From assembly GCA_013286045.1 (NCBI GenBank), contig JABDGM010000007.1, forward strand, positions 1 to 64,000: DNA of 64,000 nt. Reading direction: 5' to 3'. The position numbers and the translations under genes are program-made. This DNA is from Planctomycetota bacterium (lineage in GTDB: Bacteria > Planctomycetota > Planctomycetia > Pirellulales > Lacipirellulaceae). The notes beneath the pieces were generated by a model. That model was not told the DNA's origin. It worked only from the letters and a program-made list of their open reading frames with translations, and made no database searches. The stretch's first letter is position 1; each line of letters starts with the position of its first letter. Shown here piece after piece: positions 3,752 to 17,027 of this stretch.

Positions 3752-5500
3752 ATGGATCAGTCGAACGATCCGCCGCGCGCTGAGACCGAGCGGCGTTTCG
3801 AGAATGCAATCGCTGGTTATCTCGACGACGTGTCCGCAGGAACTCCCGATCCTGGAAAGTTGCTCGCGGCGCATCCAGATTTGGCCGACGACCTTCGAGA
3901 TTTCCTCCAGGATCACCAGCGTCTCATGCGGATCGCTGATCTCTTGCAGGTCGGCGTTAGTGCAGATGAGCAGGCGGAAAACTCGACTCCTCACGATTCA
4001 ATCCGCGATGAAACGGCGCGTTTGGAAAATATCGCGTTAGGTGCACCGGTTCCGCTGCAAAACAGCGACCAATCTTCGTCACCTAGTCTCGGGCGATTTG
4101 GCGACTACGACTTGCTTCATGAGATTGCGCGTGGGGGCATGGGCGTTGTCTACAAGGCTCATCAGGTGAGTCTGAATCGAACCGTGGCGATCAAAATGAT
4201 TTTGCGCGGCACGCTCGCCGGTGGCGAGGATATCGAACGCTTCACGCTGGAAGCCAAAGCCGTTGCCAAGCTCAGTCATCCGCAAATTGTCGTGATTCAC
4301 GATGTAGGCCAGTGCGACGATCAATATTTCTACTCGATGGAATATGTCGAAGGCAGAAGCCTGGCCGAAATGATTCGCAGCGGGCCGGTTAACAGTCGCA
4401 AAGCGGCAGAGTATGTCGAACAAGTCGCGAGGGCGATTGAGTTCGCTCATCAAAACAACATCGTGCACCGCGACATTAAACCTTCGAACGTATTGGTAGA
4501 TGCCAGCGGCCGTGCGCGGGTCACTGATTTCGGTCTGGCAAAGCACGTCGATCGCGGTGAAGAGCTGACACTTACCGGGCAAATTATCGGCACCCCAGCC
4601 TACATGGCACCGGAGCAAATCACCAATCGCCGCGGCGAAATCGGTCCGGCGTGCGACGTGTATGGCATGGGGGCGCTCCTCTACGAATTGCTGACAGGGC
4701 GAACTCCGTTCAAGGGACGCGATCAATTTAACACCTTGCTGCAAGTATTGGATTGCGAACCGCAGTCACCGCGCGAGGTGAATCACGATGTGCCACGTGA
4801 GTTGGCGGCAATTTGTTTGAAGTGTTTGGAGAAGGATCCGCGGCGTCGCTACACCTCGGCCGCGGATCTCGCCGACGATTTGAATCGTTTTCTATCGGGT
4901 GATCCAATCAGTGTTCATGGTCACAAGATCGTCGATCGGGTTGTGAGGACTTTGGGCCGCAGTCAATACGACCGGGAGTTCCACACATGGTCGCGAATCT
5001 TTTTGTATGTCGGCGGCATCTCGCTTGCCACTCACATTCTTGTTTTCTTGAATCACAAGTTGCAGCCGCCACATCCGCTTGGGCAGCTGATTGTGGTTCG
5101 AATCGGCGAATTGATTGCGATGGGGGCCGTGCTATGGTGGTTGCGAAGCGAGTGGTATCCACCGCGCGGCGCCCCTACGAGGCAGTTGTTGTCGCTGTGG
5201 CTCGGCTACTTGGCCGGTTCGACGACTTTGATACTAGTCACTTATCTGCAAACGCCAGCGGGCCAGTCGTTCGACGATTTCCTCGCCTATCCGCCGATGG
5301 CGGTGCTCGCCAGTTTGCTGTTCATGATGCTCGGCAGCAGCTACTGGGGTTATTGCTACGTGATAGGTTCGATATTCCTCGCAATCGCAATATTGACGAG
5401 CCTTTGGCTAGCGGCGGCACCGCTTATTTTTGGGGCCGCATGGGCCACCAGCTTGCTGATTTTGAGCGTCCGGCTCGGTTGTTTGGCCGAGAATCAGTAG
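3752..5500 (+). CDS. Serine/threonine protein kinase with C-terminal membrane segments
   Basis: A 582-aa Hanks-type kinase. An N-terminal segment (about 1-115) resembles the helical pre-kinase region of planctomycete kinases. The kinase domain follows: glycine loop ARGGMG at 126-131, catalytic lysine K148 in VAIK, HRDIKPSN with H239-R240-D241 and N246, DFG at 259-261, and GTPAYMAPEQ in the activation segment. All catalytic residues are present, so it should be active. After about residue 400 there are roughly six hydrophobic helices, anchoring it in the membrane. It follows the sigma factor gene by 51 bp on the same strand and is a likely partner of it. Confidence 0.92.
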   Translation: MDQSNDPPRAETERRFENAIAGYLDDVSAGTPDPGKLLAAHPDLADDLRDFLQDHQRLMRIADLLQVGVSADEQAENSTPHDSIRDETARLENIALGAPVPLQNSDQSSSPSLGRFGDYDLLHEIARGGMGVVYKAHQVSLNRTVAIKMILRGTLAGGEDIERFTLEAKAVAKLSHPQIVVIHDVGQCDDQYFYSMEYVEGRSLAEMIRSGPVNSRKAAEYVEQVARAIEFAHQNNIVHRDIKPSNVLVDASGRARVTDFGLAKHVDRGEELTLTGQIIGTPAYMAPEQITNRRGEIGPACDVYGMGALLYELLTGRTPFKGRDQFNTLLQVLDCEPQSPREVNHDVPRELAAICLKCLEKDPRRRYTSAADLADDLNRFLSGDPISVHGHKIVDRVVRTLGRSQYDREFHTWSRIFLYVGGISLATHILVFLNHKLQPPHPLGQLIVVRIGELIAMGAVLWWLRSEWYPPRGAPTRQLLSLWLGYLAGSTTLILVTYLQTPAGQSFDDFLAYPPMAVLASLLFMMLGSSYWGYCYVIGSIFLAIAILTSLWLAAAPLIFGAAWATSLLILSVRLGCLAENQ

Positions 5501-5657
5501 ATTGTTGATTCTTTTCGTAATTGGCGCGCAAAACCGCGATCGCATTCGGCTCACTATATCTTATGGCCCTTGCTTGGCTGCCCATCGAACCAACGGCGGC
5601 CAATTGCCGAGCTGCATACGCTTATGCGCCGCACAAGGGCTTTGCGGGAGAACTTCG

Positions 5658-8375
5658 ATGCCAATTACCGTGCGATGCCGTTCTTGTGGCCGACTTTTAA
5701 AGGCGATGGCCGACTCGACAGGTCACCTTGGCGACTGCCCATACTGCGGCCGGCCGCTGGATGCGGCGGCCGCTGCTTCAGCTGCGGACCATTCGACTCC
5801 TGGCGAAGCATCGGAGTCTGTCCTCGATAATCCTGCGACCGAAGTCGGCGCAGATGATTTTCCGAATCTCGAAGAAACGGCCTCGCCACATGTTTCGGAC
5901 TCTTTCGAGCCCACAGCGCAGAAGAACGAGACGTGGCGACGGATGTTCGAGGCATTGATCGATCCGCGAAGTATCCAATGGATGTTAATGATCGGCGGCA
6001 GTCTGTGCGTCCTGGGGCTGGTGGTCTGGCTGACCAGCCTCGGAGTGTTCAAGAATCCGCACGTACTCGCGGCCGCTCTGGGAATCGGCACGCTTGCGAT
6101 TGTCGGCTCCGGATGGTTCGTCACGCTTCGCACGCGCTTTCGCGTCGCGGGCCAGGCGCTTACGTTTCTCGGCTGCGTCGTAGCGCCGCTGAATTTGTGG
6201 TTCTACAACGCCCAAAACCTGGTGACAGTCGACGGCCACTTGTGGGTGGGAGGCGTCGTGTGTTGCGTGCTTTACGCTGCGACCGTCATGATACTTCGCG
6301 ATCCTGTGTTCATGTATGCCTTCGAAGCTGGTGTAACGTTGACTACCCTGCTCCTCTTGGGCGACCTGGGCAAGATCACCGACATCACATGGCTCAGCCT
6401 GTTTTTTATGGCGCTAGGACTCATCTCCATTCATAGCGAACGCATGTTCTCGCCCGCCGAGGACAGCGACTTCCCGCGCCGGCGATTTGGACTGCCACTT
6501 TTCTGGTCGGGGCATGCACAAATCGCGGCTTCGCTGCTCACCCTGTTAGCGTCGCAGCTTCTCGGCTGGATGGAGGAACCGGTACGCACTTTATTTGGAA
6601 CCGAATGGGTCGGCGGCCTACTGACGACGAACTATTTGTTGGCGACGGGCGTGTGGTTGGCAGGCATGTATGCCTATGTGTACTCCGATGTGGTAGTGCG
6701 CAAGATCGGCGTCTACCTGGCGTTGGCCGGTGTTTGCCTCGTGATGGCTCAAACCACCCTGCTGTTAGGATTCGACGTTCGTGCGGAGTGGATTCTCGCG
6801 GCTATGGCGATTACCTCCGTGGCGATCAACGTTGGTCGCCAACAACTGCCGGGCCTTTACCTGCGTATGGATCGCTTCATCCCGCCGGTAGGTTTGGCGT
6901 TGAGTGCGGCTCCTGCGATCTGGGGAGTGGTACTGCATGCACGTGCAACTACTGCGGCTGCCCAGGAACTTGGGTGGACCTACTCGATTGGCTGGCAATT
7001 CGTTGCGGTCATGCTGGTGGTCGCCGCGGCAAACTGCGTGAATGCGTTCCTATCCCGACGCACCGACTCCAAGTCGTCGTCCGCCTACTATTTTGTCGGA
7101 GCTGCCTCGTTGCTCGTTGCCGCCTCCGCATGGTTGCGCTTCATCGGAGTGACGCAGTGGCTTGAACAAGCGCCCTGGATGATGCTGATTCCCGTCAGCT
7201 ATCTCATCGTCTCGCGGATGTTGCGAGGTCGCACTGAGGAAAATCCGCTGTACTGGGTTGCTCAAATTGCCGTCACCGTGATCCTGGTGCACGTCTTTGG
7301 CGCGATGGTGCAAGAACCGCATGGCATTCTGCCGGCGTCCGGAAGTCATGCGAGTTTCATCGCGGGAATTCTTCTGTTCGAAGCGGCTGCGTTCTACTTG
7401 CTGGCAGGACTATTTTTCCGCACCGCGATCAACATCTACCTGGCCGCCGCGACTGCTTGTGTCGCGCTGTGGCAGTTCCTTGGCTACTTTGGTGTCGACG
7501 AGCAGTATTATACGCTGCTGTACGCGACTCTCGGCCTCGTGAGCCTGGGAGTAAGTCGAGCGTTCGGCCTGAAGCAGCTTGCCAACGGTTTACAGAACGA
7601 CGACTTAACAACGTCTCCCAGTCCCGGCCTCGTGCTGTTTCAATGCGGCAGTGGAATTCTGACGCTCGCTTGCTTGGCAGCTCTCATGCAGGGCCTTGCC
7701 GGGCTCGCGCGCCGGGGCAGCGATTGGTGGGACCTGCTGTCGATTTCTCTCACTGCTGTAATCGCGTTGCTTGCGGCGGCCATCGTACCGGCCGTTCAGT
7801 GGCGTCGAATCTATACGAGTGCCGCCTGTGCGTTGGGTGCCGTTGCCATGTTGCGATTCAATCTGCTGATTCATTTGAACGGCTGGCAGAAACTGGAAGT
7901 CTTCTGCGTGGCGATTGGGGCGTGCATGCTCGTCGCGAGCCATTTCGGTTTGTTTCGCGAAGAAACCGGCGCTCGCAATGAAAACGTCGGGCTTGGCCTG
8001 GCGCTCGGGACGATCCTCGTCATCTTGCCGCTAACGATTGCCGTCTTTTACCACCGTTGGATAGGTAGCCAACCATCGATCTACGATGAAATGGCGCTGC
8101 TAACGCTTGGCATTCCAATGTTGGTCACCGGCCTCGGCTGGAAGATTAAATCCACAACGCTGTGGAGCGGGTCGGCCCTGTCGCTCTACTTCATCGTGCT
8201 CATCGTGTCCCTGATTCATCATCCTCAGGTTGCGATCGGTGTATACATGGCCGTCGGTGGCGCCGTGGTGTTCGCGATCGGAATCATATTGAGTATCTAT
8301 CGAGACAAGCTGAAGGACATTCCCGACCACATTGCCAATCGGAAGGGCGTGTTCGAAATCCTAAACTGGCGATAG
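5658..8375 (+). CDS. Large polytopic membrane protein with N-terminal zinc ribbon
   Basis: A 905-aa protein. The frame is open from 5502, but ATG 5658 has GGGAG upstream and starts directly at a zinc ribbon: C7-x2-C10 and C27-x2-C30. An acidic, low-complexity linker follows to about residue 110. The rest is more than twenty hydrophobic helices, with only short loops and no recognisable transport or enzyme motif. The architecture (one ribbon plus a long run of TM helices) resembles poorly characterised DUF2157/DUF2339-like membrane proteins, but I do not recognise a specific family. It lies downstream of the kinase on the same strand with a 157-bp gap, so it may be independently transcribed. 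Confidence 0.7.
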   Translation: MPITVRCRSCGRLLKAMADSTGHLGDCPYCGRPLDAAAAASAADHSTPGEASESVLDNPATEVGADDFPNLEETASPHVSDSFEPTAQKNETWRRMFEALIDPRSIQWMLMIGGSLCVLGLVVWLTSLGVFKNPHVLAAALGIGTLAIVGSGWFVTLRTRFRVAGQALTFLGCVVAPLNLWFYNAQNLVTVDGHLWVGGVVCCVLYAATVMILRDPVFMYAFEAGVTLTTLLLLGDLGKITDITWLSLFFMALGLISIHSERMFSPAEDSDFPRRRFGLPLFWSGHAQIAASLLTLLASQLLGWMEEPVRTLFGTEWVGGLLTTNYLLATGVWLAGMYAYVYSDVVVRKIGVYLALAGVCLVMAQTTLLLGFDVRAEWILAAMAITSVAINVGRQQLPGLYLRMDRFIPPVGLALSAAPAIWGVVLHARATTAAAQELGWTYSIGWQFVAVMLVVAAANCVNAFLSRRTDSKSSSAYYFVGAASLLVAASAWLRFIGVTQWLEQAPWMMLIPVSYLIVSRMLRGRTEENPLYWVAQIAVTVILVHVFGAMVQEPHGILPASGSHASFIAGILLFEAAAFYLLAGLFFRTAINIYLAAATACVALWQFLGYFGVDEQYYTLLYATLGLVSLGVSRAFGLKQLANGLQNDDLTTSPSPGLVLFQCGSGILTLACLAALMQGLAGLARRGSDWWDLLSISLTAVIALLAAAIVPAVQWRRIYTSAACALGAVAMLRFNLLIHLNGWQKLEVFCVAIGACMLVASHFGLFREETGARNENVGLGLALGTILVILPLTIAVFYHRWIGSQPSIYDEMALLTLGIPMLVTGLGWKIKSTTLWSGSALSLYFIVLIVSLIHHPQVAIGVYMAVGGAVVFAIGIILSIYRDKLKDIPDHIANRKGVFEILNWR

Positions 8376-8428: not shown

Positions 8429-9316
8429 TCAGCTATCGAGCACCTTCGATTTCGCCGACCGAACGATTTCACCTTGAAGCAAAGCGGGTGCTTCGTCGAC
8501 GTTATTCAACCCCGTCACGAAGCTCAGATCATGCATTGTTTTTTCGGTCTCAAGCATGCTGTTGGCAACTTGATCGACCTGGCCGGAGATGAAGTCCGGT
8601 TCCTGACGATTGACGGCCACTTCGCTCAGCGACTGGATCTTGTTCTCCAGCCGATCGATTTCGAGTTTGACCATGTCGTAATTGTCTTGGGCTCGCTGCA
8701 GGTTGCTTAATCGATCGCGGCTCGTTTGCAGGTTATCTTCCAATGCCTTCCGCACGCGATCATTTTGATTGTCCGCAGCGGCTGGTCCCAACTTCTTCAA
8801 TCGATCGTCGAAACGCGAAATGTCCGCTTTGATCTGTTCCTGACTTGTTTGCTTAAGAAAGCGATACAGCGCAAATTGCGTGAATAACAATCGCAAATGC
8901 ATCCATAACAATCGATCCAACCCGGCAATTTGAAAGTGCTCCAATGGTGCCGAGCTGTCGCCGTGACTCGTTTGTTTGAGCTCCTCGGCGATTTGTTGCA
9001 GGTTCTGGCAACGCGCTTTGAGCGCCAGGAATCGGTCGAGAAGTTCTTTCGGCAGCGACTGCGTAATGCGCTGCAGCGTTTCTTGAGTTGAAACCGTCGT
9101 TGCCGCGCGAGCCAGCTTGGCCTGCTGGGCATCGACATACGCTTGAAATTTCGGATGCGCGCCGATGAGGCCCAAGTAGGTGATTTCGACGGCCGCCGCC
9201 ACGGCCAACAGCGCATCGGGAATCGGCGTGAGGAGCGCGAAGACACTTGCCGCTCCGAACCACAAGAGGTTCCAGCGGTTCAAGAACGCCGTTTTCAGAT
9301 AGTTGCCGAATTTCAC
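8429..9316 (-). CDS. Membrane-anchored coiled-coil protein, last gene of the PspA/ABC unit
   Basis: A 295-aa protein of unknown family. Residues about 15-52 form one or two hydrophobic helices (NLLWFGAASVFALLTPIPDA and a following stretch). The remainder is highly charged and helical with coiled-coil character (heptad-like LKARCQNLQQIAEELKQ, DRLKKLGPAAADNQNDRV, EIDRLENKIQSLSEVA). It starts 14 bp after the ABC ATPase stop and is the promoter-distal gene of the seven-gene unit. The coiled coil could bind the PspA-like coiled coil or the cytoplasmic face of the ABC transporter; that is inference only. Confidence 0.72.
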   Translation of the reverse strand: MKFGNYLKTAFLNRWNLLWFGAASVFALLTPIPDALLAVAAAVEITYLGLIGAHPKFQAYVDAQQAKLARAATTVSTQETLQRITQSLPKELLDRFLALKARCQNLQQIAEELKQTSHGDSSAPLEHFQIAGLDRLLWMHLRLLFTQFALYRFLKQTSQEQIKADISRFDDRLKKLGPAAADNQNDRVRKALEDNLQTSRDRLSNLQRAQDNYDMVKLEIDRLENKIQSLSEVAVNRQEPDFISGQVDQVANSMLETEKTMHDLSFVTGLNNVDEAPALLQGEIVRSAKSKVLDS

Positions 9317-9330
9317 CGATCGCTCCGCAG

Positions 9331-10245
9331 CTACTTCGATTCAGCGTTGGCCTGCGCTTCAAGCTGAGCGATCAGGTCGCGAATATAGTATACCGTCTCC
9401 TGAAAGCGCGGGACGCGGGCCATCTCTAACGCCGGGCGGTCGGCCGGTTCGATTTCAAGCTCCTTCATCACGCGGCCAGGACCGGTGGACATGATGTACA
9501 CACGGTCGCCCAAGAATACCGCTTCTTCGATGGAATGAGTGACGAAGAAGACGGTGGCCTCGACAGCACGCCACAGCTGGATTAACAAATCTTGCATGTT
9601 CATGCGCGTTTGCGGATCGAGCGCGCCGAACGGCTCGTCCATGAGAATGATGCGCGGCTGCAGAATGAGCGTGCGGGCGATCGCAACCCGCTGCCGCATT
9701 CCACCCGAAAGCTCGTGCGGGTACTTCTCCGCGTCCGTCGCCACGTTGAGCCCCACTTGGCCGATCCAGTGGCAAGCAAGCTCGTTTCGCTCGCGCCGAT
9801 CGACCCCCTGACACTCCAACCCGAAGGCGATGTTTCCCAAGACCGAGCGGTGATCAAAGGATGTGTAATCTTGAAACACCATTCCGCGATCAGCAGCTGG
9901 GCCCGCGACCGGTTTGCCAAAGACCAGCACGTTTCCCCTGGTAGCCGGATGCTGTGGCTCGAGCCCTGCAATGAGCCGCAAGATCGTGCTCTTCCCACAG
10001 CCGCTAGGGCCGAGAATGCAAACGAACTCGCCCTTGTCAGGTATATCGGCAACGACAAAGTTCACATCGCGAATAGCCGTAAACTCATTCGCCAAACCGG
10101 CGTTGTATGTTTTCGTGACGTGCTGAAATTCAACGACGTGCGGGCGATCTTGCGCGCCGGCTTGCTGCACTCGGTCCAGAACGCGACCCATACCGACGTC
10201 TTGTGCGGCGGTCGCGGCAGCGGATTGGATGATTTGAGTTGCCAT
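9331..10245 (-). CDS. ABC transporter ATP-binding protein (nitrate/sulfonate/taurine type)
   Basis: A 304-aa ATPase of the SsuB/TauB/NrtD class. Walker A is GPSGCGKST at about residues 79-87. The ABC signature is LSGGMRQRVAIAR, Walker B is IILMDEPFGALD, and the switch histidine is in FFVTHS. It has an N-terminal extension of about 35 residues before the ABC fold. It lies 35 bp after the permease gene and 14 bp before the coiled-coil gene. It should energise the permease encoded at 10281-11345. Class assignment is strong; substrate is unknown. Confidence 0.92.
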   Translation of the reverse strand: MATQIIQSAAATAAQDVGMGRVLDRVQQAGAQDRPHVVEFQHVTKTYNAGLANEFTAIRDVNFVVADIPDKGEFVCILGPSGCGKSTILRLIAGLEPQHPATRGNVLVFGKPVAGPAADRGMVFQDYTSFDHRSVLGNIAFGLECQGVDRRERNELACHWIGQVGLNVATDAEKYPHELSGGMRQRVAIARTLILQPRIILMDEPFGALDPQTRMNMQDLLIQLWRAVEATVFFVTHSIEEAVFLGDRVYIMSTGPGRVMKELEIEPADRPALEMARVPRFQETVYYIRDLIAQLEAQANAESK

Positions 10246-10280
10246 TAAACTCGGATAGAGAGTGCCAGCGGATATCGGAG

Positions 10281-11345
10281 CTAATCAAGGCCTTTCTTAG
10301 TCGGCATCCCAGTTTGGCGACCCCGAAGCGAGGCGAGCTGACTGGCCTGGAGTGGCACCGGCTTAACAATCAGGTGCTTTAGGTTTTCGCAAATATGCAT
10401 CAATCCGCGCCATGCACTGTGCAGAACACCACCGCCGCCATATTGATGCGGGAAAAGGCTCCTTTGGATCAAATAAAGCAGCCGATCGATCGTGAGAGCT
10501 ACGGCGGGAATGACAATCAGTAGCAGGTAAATGGGTTCTTGGTGGCCGCGACGTTGCGCAACATTGATGATGTGGCCGATGCCGCCTGCACTGTGCGCTT
10601 CAGTAACTAACTCGGTCAGCATGATATAGCCGAAAGCCAGTCCGAACAGCAGTCGCACCGAATTGAACAGCCGAGGCATCGCCAAGGGCACCAGCACCTT
10701 GAGGATGATTTGCAAGCGCGAAGCGCCAAGCGTGAAAGCCGTATCGATGTAACGGCCGCTGACGTCGGCGATTGCGGTGGCGGTGTCCATCATGATGAAC
10801 GCGACGACAGCGATAAAAATGAACATGACTTTTTGGAATTCGCCGACTCCGAAGAGACTGAACGACAACGGAATCAGCGCGGCAATTGGAATGTTGCGTC
10901 CAAAGACATTGATTGGCGCAAAAAATGAATTGACCCAGGGAAAGCAGCCGCACAATACGCCGAGTGGAATGGCGACGGCCGCCGCCAGCATAAAGCCGAG
11001 TACCACGCGCCGCAGGGTAACAAGCAAATTTCTCGTGAGCGCATCGTCGAACCAAAGATCGTGCATTTGCTCCGTGCTAAACGTTTCGACGGGGCTGGGA
11101 AGCGAGCGATAGCCAAGCATCCGCTCTTCGTTTGAACCGCGCGTGAGAAACCACCATACGAGCAAGACGAGCGTGAGGCACGCGGCGCCAAGCAGCATGC
11201 TAGCCCACTGCGGAATTGGTCTGCGAAAAGCAAAAAGGCTGCCGCCACGCGGAGTTTCACCGTCTGAAGTTGCGTGTACGACTGTGTCCGCCGGCACCGA
11301 CGGATTCGACTGTGCCGGCGGTATGCTCGCTGAAGCGTCGCTCAT
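10281..11345 (-). CDS. ABC transporter permease (BPD_transp_1 family)
   Basis: A 354-aa inner-membrane protein with an N-terminal cytoplasmic tail of about 40 residues, one TM helix near 50-68, a long hydrophilic segment, then the permease core of five to six helices. The cytoplasmic coupling loop is visible at TLGASRLQIILKVLVPLAMP, matching the EAA-type loop that docks on the ATPase. The class is that of nitrate/sulfonate/taurine permeases. The gene is 8 bp downstream of the substrate-binding/OmpA fusion and 35 bp upstream of the ATPase, so the three form a complete importer. The hydrophilic insert between TM1 and the core is longer than usual. Confidence 0.9.
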   Translation of the reverse strand: MSDASASIPPAQSNPSVPADTVVHATSDGETPRGGSLFAFRRPIPQWASMLLGAACLTLVLLVWWFLTRGSNEERMLGYRSLPSPVETFSTEQMHDLWFDDALTRNLLVTLRRVVLGFMLAAAVAIPLGVLCGCFPWVNSFFAPINVFGRNIPIAALIPLSFSLFGVGEFQKVMFIFIAVVAFIMMDTATAIADVSGRYIDTAFTLGASRLQIILKVLVPLAMPRLFNSVRLLFGLAFGYIMLTELVTEAHSAGGIGHIINVAQRRGHQEPIYLLLIVIPAVALTIDRLLYLIQRSLFPHQYGGGGVLHSAWRGLMHICENLKHLIVKPVPLQASQLASLRGRQTGMPTKKGLD

Positions 11346-11353
11346 GCCACTCT

Positions 11354-13090
11354 CTATTGTTTTTCAGCCGAGTAGACTTTGATTTCGACGCGCCGGTTCT
11401 TGGCTTGATTGTCCGGGTCGTCCGGGTCGGCCGGCACATCCCAGCCCAGCCCAGCGGCGGCAAAGCGATTCGGATCCATCTTGAACTTGTTCACAAGGCC
11501 CTCCTTAACCGCATTCGCGCGATTGAGACTCAGCTCTTTGACAATGGAATCCGGAATTTGCCCGCGGCGCGAGCTATCGGTGTGACCTTCGACGATGATT
11601 CGCGCCGCTCCGAACTGACCGGCGAGCTTCGCGACTTCCTCCAGCACGTTATCCACGTTGGGATCGTAGAGCACTTCAACGACCTGGCCGTTTTGCTCTT
11701 TGTTGATCATTTTGTGGAGTTCCCAACTGTTCGGGAAGAATTGAATGACGATGGTATTCGTGAGGATTTCATCCGACTCGGCGTGGATTTGCGAAACAGC
11801 CTTCGGCGCCAAATGGACCTCGTACTCATCCTTTTGGGATCGATATTTCGGATCCTTACCGAGTGCCTCGATCACGGAGAAGTCCATCACCTTATCGAAC
11901 GGTACAGGCTGGTGCGAAATCGCGCCGACACGACGGTACAGATAATACGACTGCGCCCAAACGCGCTCGAAGTTGGTCGGGTTGTTCTGGTTGAGGAAGA
12001 ACTGAAAATTCTCCGCCCAATTCGTATTATGAGCATCGCCGAACATTTTGATCGTGTCGCTGGCAGGCATGTTGTAGCCGTCGGCCATCAGCTTCGCGCA
12101 GTGCGCCTTCTGGTCATCTTTTTTGAGCTCTTCCATGGCGTCAAAAATGCCGCGTGCAATGGCTTCGATTTTGTCAGCGTTATCTTTGGCAAAGTCGGCG
12201 CGGGCAAACCACACATCGGCGATGAGTTTGTTCGCCGTCTGTGTGTTCACCAGCATGCGGTTACCCTTCACGCCGGCGAGATTGTAAATATCTGGTGACC
12301 ACGTGACGGCCGCCGCCGCATCTTTCTGGGCGTTGAACGCCGCCGCCGCTTGGAATGCGTCTTCCGTGAACACCATATTCACTTCGCTTGGTTGCACACC
12401 GCCGGATACGAGCATATTCAGCAGGAAGTAATGTGACGGGGAATTCTGCGCGAGCAGCACCTTCTTGCCGCGCAAGTCAGACACGGTTTTGATATTTTCC
12501 CGCGCGACGATGCCGTCGCCGCCGTTCGACCAGTCGATTTGCTGAAAGATGCGCGGCATGACACGGCTATCGCGAGGCTGCCCGGTCTTGTCGACAAAAC
12601 CCTCCATGAACAGCGGCACCATATCGAGCGTGGCCCAACCGATGTGCACCTCGCCCGCCGCATAAGCGTCGCGCATCGCGACAGGATTATCGATCAGCAC
12701 GAGCTCGACTTTGAACTCATCGCCCTTCGCGGTCTTCCAAACCTTGCCGGGCTTGAAACCGTCGTTGGCGAGAATGATCGGCCCCCAGCCGGCCCAAACA
12801 TTGAGCGCGAACCGCACGGTTTTGTCTTGCAGCGGCTTGTACGCCGACGTTCCCTTCACATCCGGCAACCGTTCCGCCGGCTTGAATGAGTACTCTTTGA
12901 CAGTCGTGACCGTGTTCGAATCTTTCGCTTCCGCGTTTTGGCCGATCGCGTTGGGGTCGATCGCGCCCGTGCCTTCATGGTTCGCGGCCTTCGGCGCGAA
13001 GATGTCGCTGCGAAATGCGGCGAACGCAAGCAAGCCGCCGACGACCACGAACAACGCCAAGTAGAAGGGTGCTTTGGGTTGACCGCTCAT
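11354..13090 (-). CDS. Membrane-anchored ABC substrate-binding protein fused to OmpA-like peptidoglycan-binding domain
   Basis: A 578-aa two-domain protein. Residues 8-26 (FYLALFVVVGGLLAFAA) form an uncleaved N-terminal anchor. Residues of about 85-420 form a periplasmic NMT1/nitrate-type binding-protein fold (VWAGWGPIILANDGF, AGEVHIGWATLDMVPLF, DLRGKKVLLAQNSPSHYFLL). The last roughly 115 residues are an OmpA C-terminal-like domain: EGHTDSS, LSLNRANAVKEGL and KNRRVEIKV match the conserved Asp/Arg peptidoglycan-binding signature. The fusion would tether the substrate receptor between inner membrane and cell wall. It is the first gene of the ABC part of the unit, 121 bp after the 99-aa gene. 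Domain calls are strong; the ligand is unknown. Confidence 0.85.
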   Translation of the reverse strand: MSGQPKAPFYLALFVVVGGLLAFAAFRSDIFAPKAANHEGTGAIDPNAIGQNAEAKDSNTVTTVKEYSFKPAERLPDVKGTSAYKPLQDKTVRFALNVWAGWGPIILANDGFKPGKVWKTAKGDEFKVELVLIDNPVAMRDAYAAGEVHIGWATLDMVPLFMEGFVDKTGQPRDSRVMPRIFQQIDWSNGGDGIVARENIKTVSDLRGKKVLLAQNSPSHYFLLNMLVSGGVQPSEVNMVFTEDAFQAAAAFNAQKDAAAAVTWSPDIYNLAGVKGNRMLVNTQTANKLIADVWFARADFAKDNADKIEAIARGIFDAMEELKKDDQKAHCAKLMADGYNMPASDTIKMFGDAHNTNWAENFQFFLNQNNPTNFERVWAQSYYLYRRVGAISHQPVPFDKVMDFSVIEALGKDPKYRSQKDEYEVHLAPKAVSQIHAESDEILTNTIVIQFFPNSWELHKMINKEQNGQVVEVLYDPNVDNVLEEVAKLAGQFGAARIIVEGHTDSSRRGQIPDSIVKELSLNRANAVKEGLVNKFKMDPNRFAAAGLGWDVPADPDDPDNQAKNRRVEIKVYSAEKQ

Positions 13091-13211
13091 GTTTTATGCC
13101 TGGGTTTGAGGTCCGAAAGGAATGATTTGTTTGGCGTCCCCTGCCCTGCACATCCAAAGTTCCTGCAGGCTGTTTTTCATGAGGGGCACGCATTTGAGTT
13201 CCGAGGCTTGA

Positions 13212-13511
13212 TCATCCGCGAAACTTTGACATCGGTCGCGCGCTTTGCATCATGTTGAGCGACTGCATCATATCGTAAGCAGTGATTTCCGCGAGCAATT
13301 GCGTTACGCGTTCGTGCAACTGCGCGTCGAGTTGTGGCTCGATCTCTTTCATCAGTTTTACGACGCGCTGCTCCTGTGTTTTGACTTCATCGTCCGTCAC
13401 TTTGCCATCGGCCATGGTGTGGATGAATGACTTGAGCCGCTGGGCTTGATCTGCAATCAACGACGCGTTCGAGGTCTCGTCAAACCAGGTTGATTTAGTA
13501 TTCGCGGCCAT
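13212..13511 (-). CDS. Small helical cytoplasmic protein between AAA ATPase and ABC genes
   Basis: A 99-aa acidic, predominantly helical protein without signal or TM segment. Its DGKVTDDEV stretch resembles the acidic turn of TerB-like or EF-hand helices, but the match is too short to name a family. It lies 49 bp after the AAA+ gene and 121 bp before the substrate-binding/OmpA fusion, in the same orientation, so it is an integral member of the unit. The consistent spacing and codon use support a real gene; the function is unknown. Confidence 0.68.
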   Translation of the reverse strand: MAANTKSTWFDETSNASLIADQAQRLKSFIHTMADGKVTDDEVKTQEQRVVKLMKEIEPQLDAQLHERVTQLLAEITAYDMMQSLNMMQSARPMSKFRG

Positions 13512-13560
13512 CTACCGTTCCTTTTGCTTTTTACAAAGATTCACGACCGAATAATTTGTT

Positions 13561-15360
13561 TTAACTATCGCCTTCCAGAAGTTGCCGAATGGCGACCATT
13601 CTTTCTTGCAACGCCGAACGTCCGCCGGATTGCGAGATCTTCTCCTGCCACTCGGCAGTCAAAAAACTGCGTTGCGTGCATTCGAGCACTGCAGCCAATT
13701 CCTGCAGCTCCTTCTCCAGCCCTTGGGCAGACGGAATGAATTCGGTGAGCGACTGTTCCAAATCGGCGCGCGACACGGCGTCGCGCTTGTCCGCAAGTGC
13801 TGTCCGACGGCCGCCGATGACAACACTCTCAAGATCGGCGCCGGAAAGTCGGCGCGATGGGTCGACAGTCGGGATCGCATCGTCCGTCAATTGCACCTTG
13901 TTCTTTTTCGCCATCATCCGCAGCATTTGCGAAATGTCGTTCGTGTTCGTCGGATAGAACAGCGGGATGTGAACCTCGGCGCGCCCTTGCCGCTTCAAAT
14001 CGATTGGCAGCAGGTCCGGGCGGCTCGTGAGCAGCATCCAAATAATCTGTCCGCGGAACCGCGTGTCGCCCATCTGGCTCGCGATCATCGAAAACACGCG
14101 GGCTGAAGTACCCGAGTCTCCAGAAGCTTGCCGGTTGCCCAGTGAGGCGTCCGCTTCGTCCACGATCACAACAACCGGCCCTAAGGATCGCAACACGCCG
14201 AGCACGAGTTCGAGATTACCTTCGGTTTCGCCGACGTATTTCGAACGAAAATTCCGCAGCACGACGCATGGGATGCCGATCGAACCCGCATAACACTCCG
14301 CAAGGAAGGTTTTGCCTGTGCCGACAGGGCCGCAAATGAGGTACCCCATGGGAGCTGAATCAAGCCGGCCCTCGCTGATCCAGCCGGCGTCCTGCTGCAA
14401 ACGCTCCTTTGCCGCATCAAGACCCACGACCAGTTCCAGCGTGTGCTTAGGCTCGATGATCTCGACCAGCCCCTGACACTGGCGTTCGATCATCGACTTC
14501 TTCAGTTGGCGGAATGACCCGCCATCGAGTCGCGTTTTATCCCGCGCCGCTTGCGATAGCACCACATTAAGATTCGTAAGCGTGAGCCCATTCGAAATCT
14601 GAGCCAGTTGCGAAGTTGTAAAATCGGCGACGCGCGCGACGTCGCCGCCGGCCGCAATCGGCAAATACTGCTCTCGCTCGATCGCGTTCGGCAGCGGAAT
14701 TTCGATCGTCGCCACATGCGGGCTCTGCAGCAACCGCTCGTTCAGCTCGATGAGCTTATCAACGATAAGTACGAAGGCCGTATTCACCCGCTTGATCAGC
14801 GGGTTCTGCGCCCACGCCAAAAACCGCACCAAGCGCGACGCTCGGCCTTGCGCCAAGCTATCCAGATCGCTGGTCGGTATCAAAAACTGCGCATAGTCAA
14901 AAATCGCGGCCACACTTTTGCGATTGGTGGGCTCTTCAAGCAGATTTCGTTCGATGAACGCATCGAGTCCCAAGAGTACCTTATCCGGATCGCGAGGCCA
15001 CGTGACTGGCTCGCCCCAGCGGCTCACCAGAAACTGCGACATCGCACGCAGCCGTTCCGGATTATCGCCGGCGAGCGCTCGCAGCCCGCGGCTTAAATCG
15101 TACCCGAGCACGACATCCCAACGCCCGAACACTTGGCTAACGAGAAAATCGACCAGCCCGCAGTAGCAGTTCTCATCGCCATCAGGCAAGTGCACCAAGT
15201 CATGCACATTGCCATGCAGCACGAACACGCACGTGGTGCCGGAGAAGTAGAGATTGGCGAGCTTCTCGGCCCAATCCGGATACCAGTCGGGCAACGGGCC
15301 TAGCGGCTGCGCTAGCGCTGCCGGTTTGGCTTCGCTAATAGGTGTGCTCGAGGGAGCCAT
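13561..15360 (-). CDS. AAA+ ATPase (Ycf46/FtsH-like AAA domain) partnered with PspA
   Basis: A 599-aa protein from ATG 15360; a TTG at 15375 is the alternative. The first ~300 residues (VFVLHGNVHDLVHL, then FVLIVDKLIELNERL) look like a degenerate AAA-like module as in Ycf46-type proteins. The C-terminal AAA domain has Walker A GPVGTGKT (344-351), Walker B VVVIVDEAD (about 396-404) and SRPDLLPIDLKRQGRAEVHI, covering sensor-1 and arginine-finger positions. No protease or membrane domain is present. It sits 86 bp downstream of the PspA-like gene. AAA+ proteins partnered with PspA (e.g. PspF, or Vps4 acting on ESCRT-III) regulate or remodel PspA-type polymers; here that role is inferred from context. 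Confidence 0.82.
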   Translation of the reverse strand: MAPSSTPISEAKPAALAQPLGPLPDWYPDWAEKLANLYFSGTTCVFVLHGNVHDLVHLPDGDENCYCGLVDFLVSQVFGRWDVVLGYDLSRGLRALAGDNPERLRAMSQFLVSRWGEPVTWPRDPDKVLLGLDAFIERNLLEEPTNRKSVAAIFDYAQFLIPTSDLDSLAQGRASRLVRFLAWAQNPLIKRVNTAFVLIVDKLIELNERLLQSPHVATIEIPLPNAIEREQYLPIAAGGDVARVADFTTSQLAQISNGLTLTNLNVVLSQAARDKTRLDGGSFRQLKKSMIERQCQGLVEIIEPKHTLELVVGLDAAKERLQQDAGWISEGRLDSAPMGYLICGPVGTGKTFLAECYAGSIGIPCVVLRNFRSKYVGETEGNLELVLGVLRSLGPVVVIVDEADASLGNRQASGDSGTSARVFSMIASQMGDTRFRGQIIWMLLTSRPDLLPIDLKRQGRAEVHIPLFYPTNTNDISQMLRMMAKKNKVQLTDDAIPTVDPSRRLSGADLESVVIGGRRTALADKRDAVSRADLEQSLTEFIPSAQGLEKELQELAAVLECTQRSFLTAEWQEKISQSGGRSALQERMVAIRQLLEGDS

Positions 15361-15446
15361 GGAGCCACGTGGCAAAGGTGGTGATCGGAAAATGCGATCG
15401 GTTCAAAAGTGTGTAGGCGACGACGATCCGCTGTTCGACGCTTCGC

Positions 15447-16199
15447 CTAGCTTTCTGCAACTTTCGTCTTCGCAGCCGGCCCGAGATCTTTGGCCGCTTC
15501 GGTCACTTTCTGCGTTTCGGGAGCGACCATCCCCATTTGTACTTCGAAGTCGCGCAGCGCCTGGTCGGCCAGTACTTTCTCCATCGATTGCTCGTGCTCG
15601 ATATCCGCGAGACCTTCCGTCGACAAATCAGCGGCGACGCGCGCCTTCGCACGATTCAGGCCGATCTTATCTTGAATCACGTCTTCGATCTGACCGAAAT
15701 CGGTCGTTACGTTGAAATCGAAACTCGTCGCGAGCTTTGCCATCTCGGCTTCGGCTCGGCTCATTTTCAGCTCGGCATCGTATTTGGTAATCTTCTGCTT
15801 GACGTCCCCGAGCTTCTGTGTGGCGTGCTTGATCTTGGTGACGTTGTTGTTGTAAGCCGTTTCATGCATCTTGAGCTGACCTTCGTTTTCGCTCAGCTGC
15901 TGCTTGGCCTTCTGCAGATCTAACGCAAACTTGGCCGCGTATTCGCGATCGCCCGCTTGCAGGTAGCTTTTGATTTTGGCCTCCAGCATCGAAATCTGCT
16001 GCTGGTTGCCAGAAACCTGCCTGCTCACGCGCTCGACCAGCCCGCGATATTGCTCCAATCCCTCACGGCCCGTTTTCAACTGCTCGACCGCGCTGTCGTA
16101 TTCGTACTGCATTTGCGCGATGGGATCGGCAGTCCAAAAGAAATTGGCGATCTTGTTCACTTGCGCTCGAAAAGCGCGCCAAAACTTGCCCACGATCAT
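15447..16199 (-). CDS. PspA/IM30 (Vipp1-like) membrane-stress protein
   Basis: A 250-aa protein starting at ATG 16199 with AAGGA nine bases upstream; the frame is open further upstream but that part is not PspA-like. The N-terminal amphipathic helix (MIVGKFWRAFRAQVNKIANF) is followed by a long antiparallel coiled coil typical of PspA/IM30, an ESCRT-III-type family that polymerises on stressed inner membranes. It lacks a Vipp1 C-terminal extension. It is the first gene of the unit, so its promoter probably lies in the 264-bp gap upstream. Family confidence is high from the helix pattern and N-terminus; the gene is not part of a classic pspABC operon. Confidence 0.85.
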   Translation of the reverse strand: MIVGKFWRAFRAQVNKIANFFWTADPIAQMQYEYDSAVEQLKTGREGLEQYRGLVERVSRQVSGNQQQISMLEAKIKSYLQAGDREYAAKFALDLQKAKQQLSENEGQLKMHETAYNNNVTKIKHATQKLGDVKQKITKYDAELKMSRAEAEMAKLATSFDFNVTTDFGQIEDVIQDKIGLNRAKARVAADLSTEGLADIEHEQSMEKVLADQALRDFEVQMGMVAPETQKVTEAAKDLGPAAKTKVAES

Positions 16200-16463: not shown

Positions 16464-17027
16464 TCAAAATGCGTATCGGACTTCTACCTGCTTGTGCTCG
16501 ATCGGAGGAATTGCAAGCGGCTCGACAATCGGCTGATTGTGCGCAATGCATTCATGCCAAGGCGGAATAATGTCGGTCTCGTAGTAGCGTTCAACATACC
16601 GCCAATCCGAACCTACGAAATCGCTGTACCACTGATCGAGGTCACTTATGCCCACCTCGCGCATCAACTGCATGCCGAACCGTGCTGCTTGATATTCGTA
16701 GTCGTGCAGCACACGCATGAAGGCCTGTTTATCGCTCGTGTCTTTCAAGGCCGCGAGTTGAGTTTCGAGCGATGGCGCCGTCCATTGAACGCTATGACCG
16801 AAAAGATGCAGCAGAATAAAGCACTGCATCTCGAAATCCACGTCTGGGTCGATCGAGATCTTGAGCCCGTCGAAAATGCCCGTGCGTGGCGGCTCAAGAT
16901 CGCGATACTCAATCGCGAAGCCGTACTTTACGATCGCCGAGCTGGCCCGAAGCCAAAGATTTACCAAAGAACCGGGCGTTGCCCGTCGCTGCCCGACCAG
17001 CTCATGCCCCGCCAATTGTGACGCCAT
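16464..17027 (-). CDS. Hypothetical protein with degenerate ImmA/IrrE-like zincin motif
   Basis: A 187-aa soluble protein with GAAGG upstream of ATG 17027. Residues 74-78 read HLFGH inside a hydrophobic helix (FILLHLFGHSVQW). About 35 residues later comes DYEYQAARFGMQLM. That spacing and pattern resemble ImmA/IrrE-type metallopeptidases (HExxH, then ExEA..FA), but the catalytic Glu of HExxH is Leu here, so it is probably not an active protease. It lies just outside the left tRNA-derived repeat, 264 bp upstream of the PspA gene and on the same strand, and could be a regulator of that unit; this is speculative. Confidence 0.62.
   Translation of the reverse strand: MASQLAGHELVGQRRATPGSLVNLWLRASSAIVKYGFAIEYRDLEPPRTGIFDGLKISIDPDVDFEMQCFILLHLFGHSVQWTAPSLETQLAALKDTSDKQAFMRVLHDYEYQAARFGMQLMREVGISDLDQWYSDFVGSDWRYVERYYETDIIPPWHECIAHNQPIVEPLAIPPIEHKQVEVRYAF

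Follow-up and report, generated by a model that had tools for sequence, protein, structure and literature searches.

A Conserved Seven-Gene Locus of PspA, an AAA+ ATPase, and an ABC Importer in Planctomycetes and Acidobacteria, and a PspA Tail Motif Associated with the ATPase

Described Systems Closest to the Locus

Operons in which PspA is encoded with an AAA+ ATPase of two domains, the N-terminal one inactive, and with the ATPase, permease, and binding-protein/OmpA fusion of an ABC system (e.g., the operon of OGG56892.1) were described by Ravi et al. 2024 (PMC11237479), and the authors proposed for them ATP-dependent remodelling coupled to solute transport. The published operons include PspA or Snf7-like proteins with a transmembrane segment. 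The planctomycete DNA analysed here (a stretch of 64,000 nucleotides, hereafter the window) harbors the same combination, including the AAA+ protein with the inactive N-domain and the PBPB–OmpA fusion: the ABC ATPase, permease, and fusion of this class are all present in a predicted operon of seven genes, as judged by their order, strand, and gaps. Since the class was published in 2024, the combination is not a new find. The main-text passages of the paper dealing with motif, tail, and operon mention neither the 99-aa gene 3, a fixed seven-gene order, the 1-2-3 and 4-5-6-7 modules, nor a PspA tail motif; relative to these passages, what is new here is the seven-gene unit with its strict order, its division into modules, gene 3, and the tail motif.

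The PspA–AAA+ pair resembles the ESCRT-III/Vps4 pair, as a polymer protein of the same superfamily, bearing a conserved short C-terminal motif, is encoded together with a classical AAA ATPase; inspection of the alignment revealed in gene 2, as in Vps4, a classical AAA domain that possesses the Walker A/B motifs, an aromatic residue in the pore loop, and arginine fingers. Unlike Vps4, the window AAA+ lacks MIT and possesses an inactive N-terminal AAA domain in its place. With the classical pspFABC system the locus shares the PspA/IM30 protein, but PspB, PspC, and the NtrC-type PspF are absent from the seven genes, and the AAA+ protein is of the same type as the classical AAA unfoldases rather than a transcription activator. 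Similarly to the TauABC/NrtABC importers, the locus encodes an NMT1/TauA-like binding domain, one permease, and one ATPase; in contrast to them, the binding domain is fused to a membrane anchor and an OmpA domain and is encoded with PspA and AAA+. The N-terminal membrane helix and C-terminal OmpA domain of this fusion are reminiscent of the MotB/PomB wall anchors, although a solute-binding domain is inserted between them and an ion-channel partner is lacking. Overall, the operon class offers a concrete candidate ATPase together with a PspA motif which tracks this ATPase across two phyla, and the motif turns the question of bacterial ESCRT-III/AAA+ pairs into a test of peptide binding and polymer disassembly.

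The Seven-Gene Block, Its Distribution, and Its Modules

The open reading frames confirmed exactly what had been predicted of the layout: seven genes, all on the minus strand, occupy positions 16199–8429 of the window, separated (from gene 1 to gene 7) by gaps of 86, 49, 121, 8, 35, and 14 bp. These figures hold exactly if translation of the AAA+ protein starts from the ATG at 15360; an alternative in-frame start, TTG, is located at 15375. The earlier labels PspA, AAA+, binding-protein/OmpA fusion, permease, and ATPase were all matched by Pfam, and genes 3 and 7 gave no match in Pfam or NCBIfam. The promoter and terminator signal was no higher than in shuffles.

Convergent with the operon is a gene on the plus strand (5502–8375) encoding a polytopic membrane protein of 957 aa that matches no Pfam family; the gene adjoins a Ser/Thr kinase gene (3752–5500). 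Upstream of PspA, a minus-strand gene (16464–17027) encodes a 187-aa protein, also with no Pfam match, whose HLFGH motif recalls ImmA/IrrE-type peptidases.

A scan with the alignment of the solute-binding protein (SBP)–OmpA fusion, using one genome per species, yielded 385 relatives, and the neighbourhoods of the best 80 of these 385 loci were retrieved. The complete seven-gene order of the window was found in 50 of these 80 loci, most of the remaining ones being interrupted by contig ends; three acidobacterial loci contain all seven genes in the order 1-4-5-6-7-2-3. Recurrence beyond this genome, set beforehand as the test of the original prediction, was thus borne out. Across the operon loci, the median gaps are 67, 77, 86, 9, −4, and 23 bp; gene 7 and gene 2 (AAA+) overlap by 4–11 bp in the acidobacteria. 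The break in transcription between the AAA+ and the ABC genes, set as the other test of the original prediction, is not suggested by the short gaps separating these two sides or by the acidobacterial overlap. The flanks of the block are variable, and an eighth conserved gene was not found in these loci, extra families being confined to about 10 loci of one subclade.

The grouping of the genes is far above chance: in 294 planctomycete genomes, the SBP–OmpA fusion (26 genomes) and the AAA+ (43 genomes) occur together in 24 (Fisher p = 2e-21), and gene 7 (34 genomes) is accompanied by the AAA+ in 32 (p = 5e-31), though these p values are only descriptive because related genomes are not independent. 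These observations support the block as a single conserved system and no coincidence of one genome.

The system consists of two modules, genes 1-2-3 (module A) and genes 4-5-6-7 (module B). The AAA+ was present in 10 of eleven genomes checked, seven of which had been chosen since their fusion locus had room for the AAA+ yet showed none nearby; the sole miss (L066) was one of these seven. In all six genomes with an AAA+-less fusion locus that were examined further, the separate AAA+ locus is a PspA–AAA+–gene 3 block. In two of these six split genomes (Aquisphaera and L094), genes 4-5-6-7 stay together and a second PspA accompanies them; in another (L131), the ABC side comprises only genes 4-5, and in three Fuerstiella loci gene 4 stands alone, followed by unrelated genes. 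In addition, triads of PspA, gene 7, and AAA+ with ABC genes not nearby were encountered in both phyla (L049, L054, L057, L059, L204, and L205). As the two modules may lie at separate places in a genome, the system need not form a stoichiometric complex.

The PspA Tail Motif and the AAA+ ATPase

Gene 1 (15447–16199, minus strand) encodes a protein of 250 aa assigned to the ESCRT-III superfamily (PspA/IM30) by PF04012, matched over the whole domain with 49.1 bits (cut-off 33.9; E = 7.1e-13); the aligned orthologues are 55–86% identical. A PDB search with the PspA profile of this clade gave no match at E 0.1. Near the C-terminus, residues 237–241 (15477–15491, minus strand) form the motif K-D-L-G-P, with the consensus [K/R]-x-[L/I/M]-G-(P), or in short K-x-[LIM]-G(P). 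In the alignment of 24 orthologues, the entropy at K237, L239, and G240 is 0.25, 0, and 0 bits vs. 2–3 bits at most other tail positions. PspAs of other planctomycete lineages, only 20–30% identical and possessing differing Ala/Pro-rich linkers, end with KDLGP, KEMGP, KTIGP, or KTMG. K-x-[LIM]-G(P) is not known to be an MIM.

The strict motif occurs in seven of eight representatives sharing <50% identity (0.07 expected by shuffling) and in none of the 26 PspAs taken from AAA+-free planctomycete genomes, although this count is post hoc because the motif was noticed after those sequences had been seen. The acidobacterial sequences, fetched after the motif had been noticed, constitute an out-of-sample set: here, the motif was found in 8/10 AAA+-linked PspAs vs. 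1/20 in genomes without the AAA+ (p = 6e-5), and in 4/7 PspAs from genomes with the AAA+ elsewhere. Both AAA+-linked sequences that lack it stop at QKTM, one residue short; a PspA of this system without the motif (L048) represents a true exception. The association of the tail motif with the AAA+, as read from these sequences, thus extends across two phyla.

The first strict form, in which G is followed by [PED] or the chain end, turned out to be too narrow in the close clade, in which G may also be followed by S, T, A, R, Q, K, or L. The core [KR]-x-[LIM]-G is present in 58 of the 60 operon PspAs of the genome collection; it also occurs, partly mid-helix, in 4/26 planctomycete and 6/20 acidobacterial controls. 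Within individual genomes, the motif is absent from the canonical second PspAs of three genomes (G000, G065, and G118), and in Aquisphaera insulae the AAA+-adjacent PspA ends with RQLGP and the ABC-adjacent copy has lost the motif. In one locus (L211), a motif match next to the AAA+ gene exposed an ORF of 240 aa that the profiles had overlooked and that Pfam assigned to PspA (4e-18).

The second, unlinked PspA of the window genome (G000:C22:24710-25309, locus L173), devoid of the tail motif, offers a natural same-cell control. In an acidobacterium, a stand-alone AAA+ gene of this family is preceded by a gene for an ankyrin-repeat protein (L206:7667-8500), the PspA with the motif (EKSLGP) being encoded on another contig.

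Gene 2 (13561–15360, minus strand) encodes the AAA+ ATPase of 599 aa, with a degenerate N-terminal and an intact C-terminal classical AAA domain; the Pfam AAA family (4.7e-20) matches the C-terminal half only. In the inspected alignment, the C-terminal domain displays Walker A and B, conserved arginines in the SRH region, and an aromatic residue at the pore-loop position. The Walker A sequence GPVGTGKT (14308–14331, minus strand) is kept in 18 homologues, and the pore-loop-1-like Tyr-Val in NFRSK-YV-GETEGN (14233–14238, minus strand) aligns with Y, W, or F in the homologues. By profile, the nearest solved relatives of this domain are VAT and p97, so the protein is a classical AAA protein; in profile searches, Vps4 did not stand out as a closer relative than p97, VAT, or PAN. 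The N-terminal domain possesses no Walker A/P-loop and in a PDB profile search resembles, weakly (E = 7e-5), only the D2 lid region of p97, its hhalign comparison with the C-terminal AAA domain being not significant alone. Pfam detected no MIT domain in gene 2, and the families it listed for gene 3 do not include one. Judging from these predicted domains, PspA stands beside a two-domain AAA+ with an inactive N-terminal domain, as in the operons presented in the passages of Ravi et al. 2024 (PMC11237479) considered above.

Gene 3 (13212–13511, minus strand), encoding the 99-aa helical protein, consistently accompanies the AAA+ within this clade: 66 orthologues were recovered in operon loci, and nine residues are invariant across 46 of the orthologues. 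Its AF2 model (pLDDT 83) consists of two long helices, for which profile and fold searches detected no known fold or solved relative. The possibilities that it is an MIT, PspA, or TerB-like protein were dropped, as profile and fold matches supported none of them. Since the motif is also present where gene 3 went undetected, the predicted tail-binding partner is more probably the AAA+ than gene 3.

The Importer, Gene 7, and a Possible Mechanism

Gene 4 (11354–13090, minus strand; 578 aa) encodes a signal-anchor followed by an NMT1/TauA-type solute-binding domain and an OmpA peptidoglycan-binding domain (NMT1 2.5e-11, OmpA 3.4e-11). Among 77 orthologues, the N-terminal hydrophobic helix is present in 96% and a lipobox in none; about half have an AxA-like site, at which the protein may be cleaved. 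The solute-binding domain (residues 93–337; 12080–12814, minus strand) is nearest to TauA/SsuA (TauA 6ssy, 1.6e-12) and a urea-type family, all matches missing their cut-offs (e.g., TIGR03427, 4.2e-23, below the curated cut-off). Its many invariant Trp, Asp, and Ser residues suggest a single conserved ligand, the identity of which is a matter of speculation; the substrate of the importer is not assigned because no NCBIfam equivalog cut-off was reached. The OmpA-type domain (residues 477–566; 11393–11662, minus strand; best PDB match 3td3, 1e-14) is present in 17/17 aligned SBP sequences, with D505 and R524 invariant in all 17. These residues align with the Asp and Arg of AbOmpA (3td3), which we take to be the diaminopimelate-binding D271 and R286. 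The proposal of a receptor tethered to the cell wall is upheld as far as the hydrophobic helix and the OmpA domain with its key residues are concerned; the tether itself is what these features would predict.

Gene 5 (10281–11345, minus strand) encodes an ABC permease of the TauC/NtrB class (BPD_transp_1 1.3e-15; NCBIfam TauC, NtrB, and SaoP below cut-off), and gene 6 (9331–10245, minus strand) an ABC ATPase of the TauB/NtrCD class (ABC_tran 3.8e-26; TauB 1.5e-63, below cut-off) with Walker A, signature, Walker B, and H-loop all in place. The binding protein, permease, and ATPase look like a seemingly ordinary and intact importer of the taurine/NMT1 class.

Gene 7 (8429–9316, minus strand) encodes a protein of 295 aa modelled (AF2 pLDDT 86) with an amphipathic N-terminus, two hydrophobic helices (hydrophobic stretches at about 17–46 and 32–55), and a long helical bundle. 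There was no PDB fold match at E <= 0.001; structural comparison retrieved helical bundles, some of them BAR-like (Z up to 9.1, rmsd about 3–5 A over 110–150 residues), which is within the chance range for helical proteins. Gene 7 would be the counterpart of the Snf7-like protein with a transmembrane segment in the published operons: it possesses hydrophobic helices, but homology to PspA/Snf7 found no support in profile–profile comparison (probability 0.3–6%), and Vipp1 ranked only 46 in Foldseek (E 0.9). Because gene 7 travels with either module, it is the best and most likely candidate for the physical link between importer and coat.

The reading we prefer, to which we assign a probability of about 0.5, is that of an ESCRT-III/Vps4-like PspA/AAA+ pair, recruited via the tail and working with a peptidoglycan-tethered importer of the taurine/NMT1 class; it builds on the observed conservation, co-occurrence, module structure, and motif with its AAA+ association. 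Alternatively, the AAA+ may be mainly an unfoldase or chaperone assembling or disassembling the ABC transporter and gene 7 within the membrane, with PspA as a platform that stabilises this membrane and the PspA tail as a docking site, and without any remodelling. The proximity of the classical AAA domain to the p97/VAT/PAN-type unfoldases and the overlap of the gene 7 and AAA+ genes in Acidobacteria are in line with this possibility, and an assembly-chaperone view for PspA partners was offered by Ravi et al. 2024 (PMC11237479) in the passages considered. However, the PspA–gene 7–AAA+ triads, existing with ABC genes not nearby, imply that the transporter is not the sole client of the AAA+, and we regard this explanation as unlikely, if worth keeping in view.

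It is also conceivable, but improbable in our opinion, that an ordinary importer is co-regulated with a psp-type stress module, envelope stress inducing both with no physical coupling between them: the ABC components are intact and typical of the TauABC/NrtBC class, and the modules lie apart in several genomes, but the universal OmpA domain of the aligned SBPs and the persistence of the seven-gene block amid variable flanks speak against it. Much farther from plausible is a sensor in place of a transporter, i.e., the earlier tension idea, in which the tethered binding protein reads a ligand or the wall–membrane distance and the ABC cycle signals via gene 7 to the PspA coat. The combination of membrane anchor and OmpA domain does recall MotB-like wall anchoring, yet the block contains no conserved regulator or signalling gene, and the ATPase and permease motifs look transport-competent. 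Of the original interpretation, the single conserved system has survived and the analogy of the PspA–AAA+ pair to ESCRT-III/Vps4 has been strengthened by the tail; coupling to tension, which is speculative, and lipid movement found no support.

Returning to the preferred reading of a tail-recruited PspA/AAA+ pair operating with the importer, PspA would polymerise at the cytoplasmic membrane, on its inner face, and the K-x-[LIM]-G tail of PspA would recruit the AAA+; the AAA+, with gene 3 as a putative adaptor, would thread PspA subunits through its pore, so the coat would be turned over or reshaped. The binding domain of gene 4 would hang between the membrane anchor and the peptidoglycan-bound OmpA domain, and the membrane-embedded gene 7 would join the importer to the PspA coat, so that a patch of remodelled membrane would be anchored to the wall where the importer sits. 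Planctomycetes and acidobacteria are phyla with unusual inner membranes. As a tentative extension, which we consider doubtful at present, bacteria might have a dedicated pair of the ESCRT-III/Vps4 type whose degenerate AAA domain, and not MIT, reads the PspA tail, and in these two phyla the machine might be wired via gene 7 to the wall-tethered importer, building a specialised uptake patch. Coupling transport to membrane shape might be of benefit; if the importer link is true, it would represent one of the few instances in which the uptake of a solute and a membrane-remodelling coat are physically coupled.

A more distant AAA+/ABC arrangement was encountered in planctomycetes and acidobacteria (L190, L191, L217, and L218), with no tail-motif PspA seen beside the AAA+/ABC genes; it includes several genes for NMT1-like binding proteins and helical proteins and, in L191, also a VWA-domain protein. 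In another locus (L039:6463-10005), the binding-protein/OmpA fusion occurs twice in tandem within one operon, and a single importer might accordingly take two ligands.
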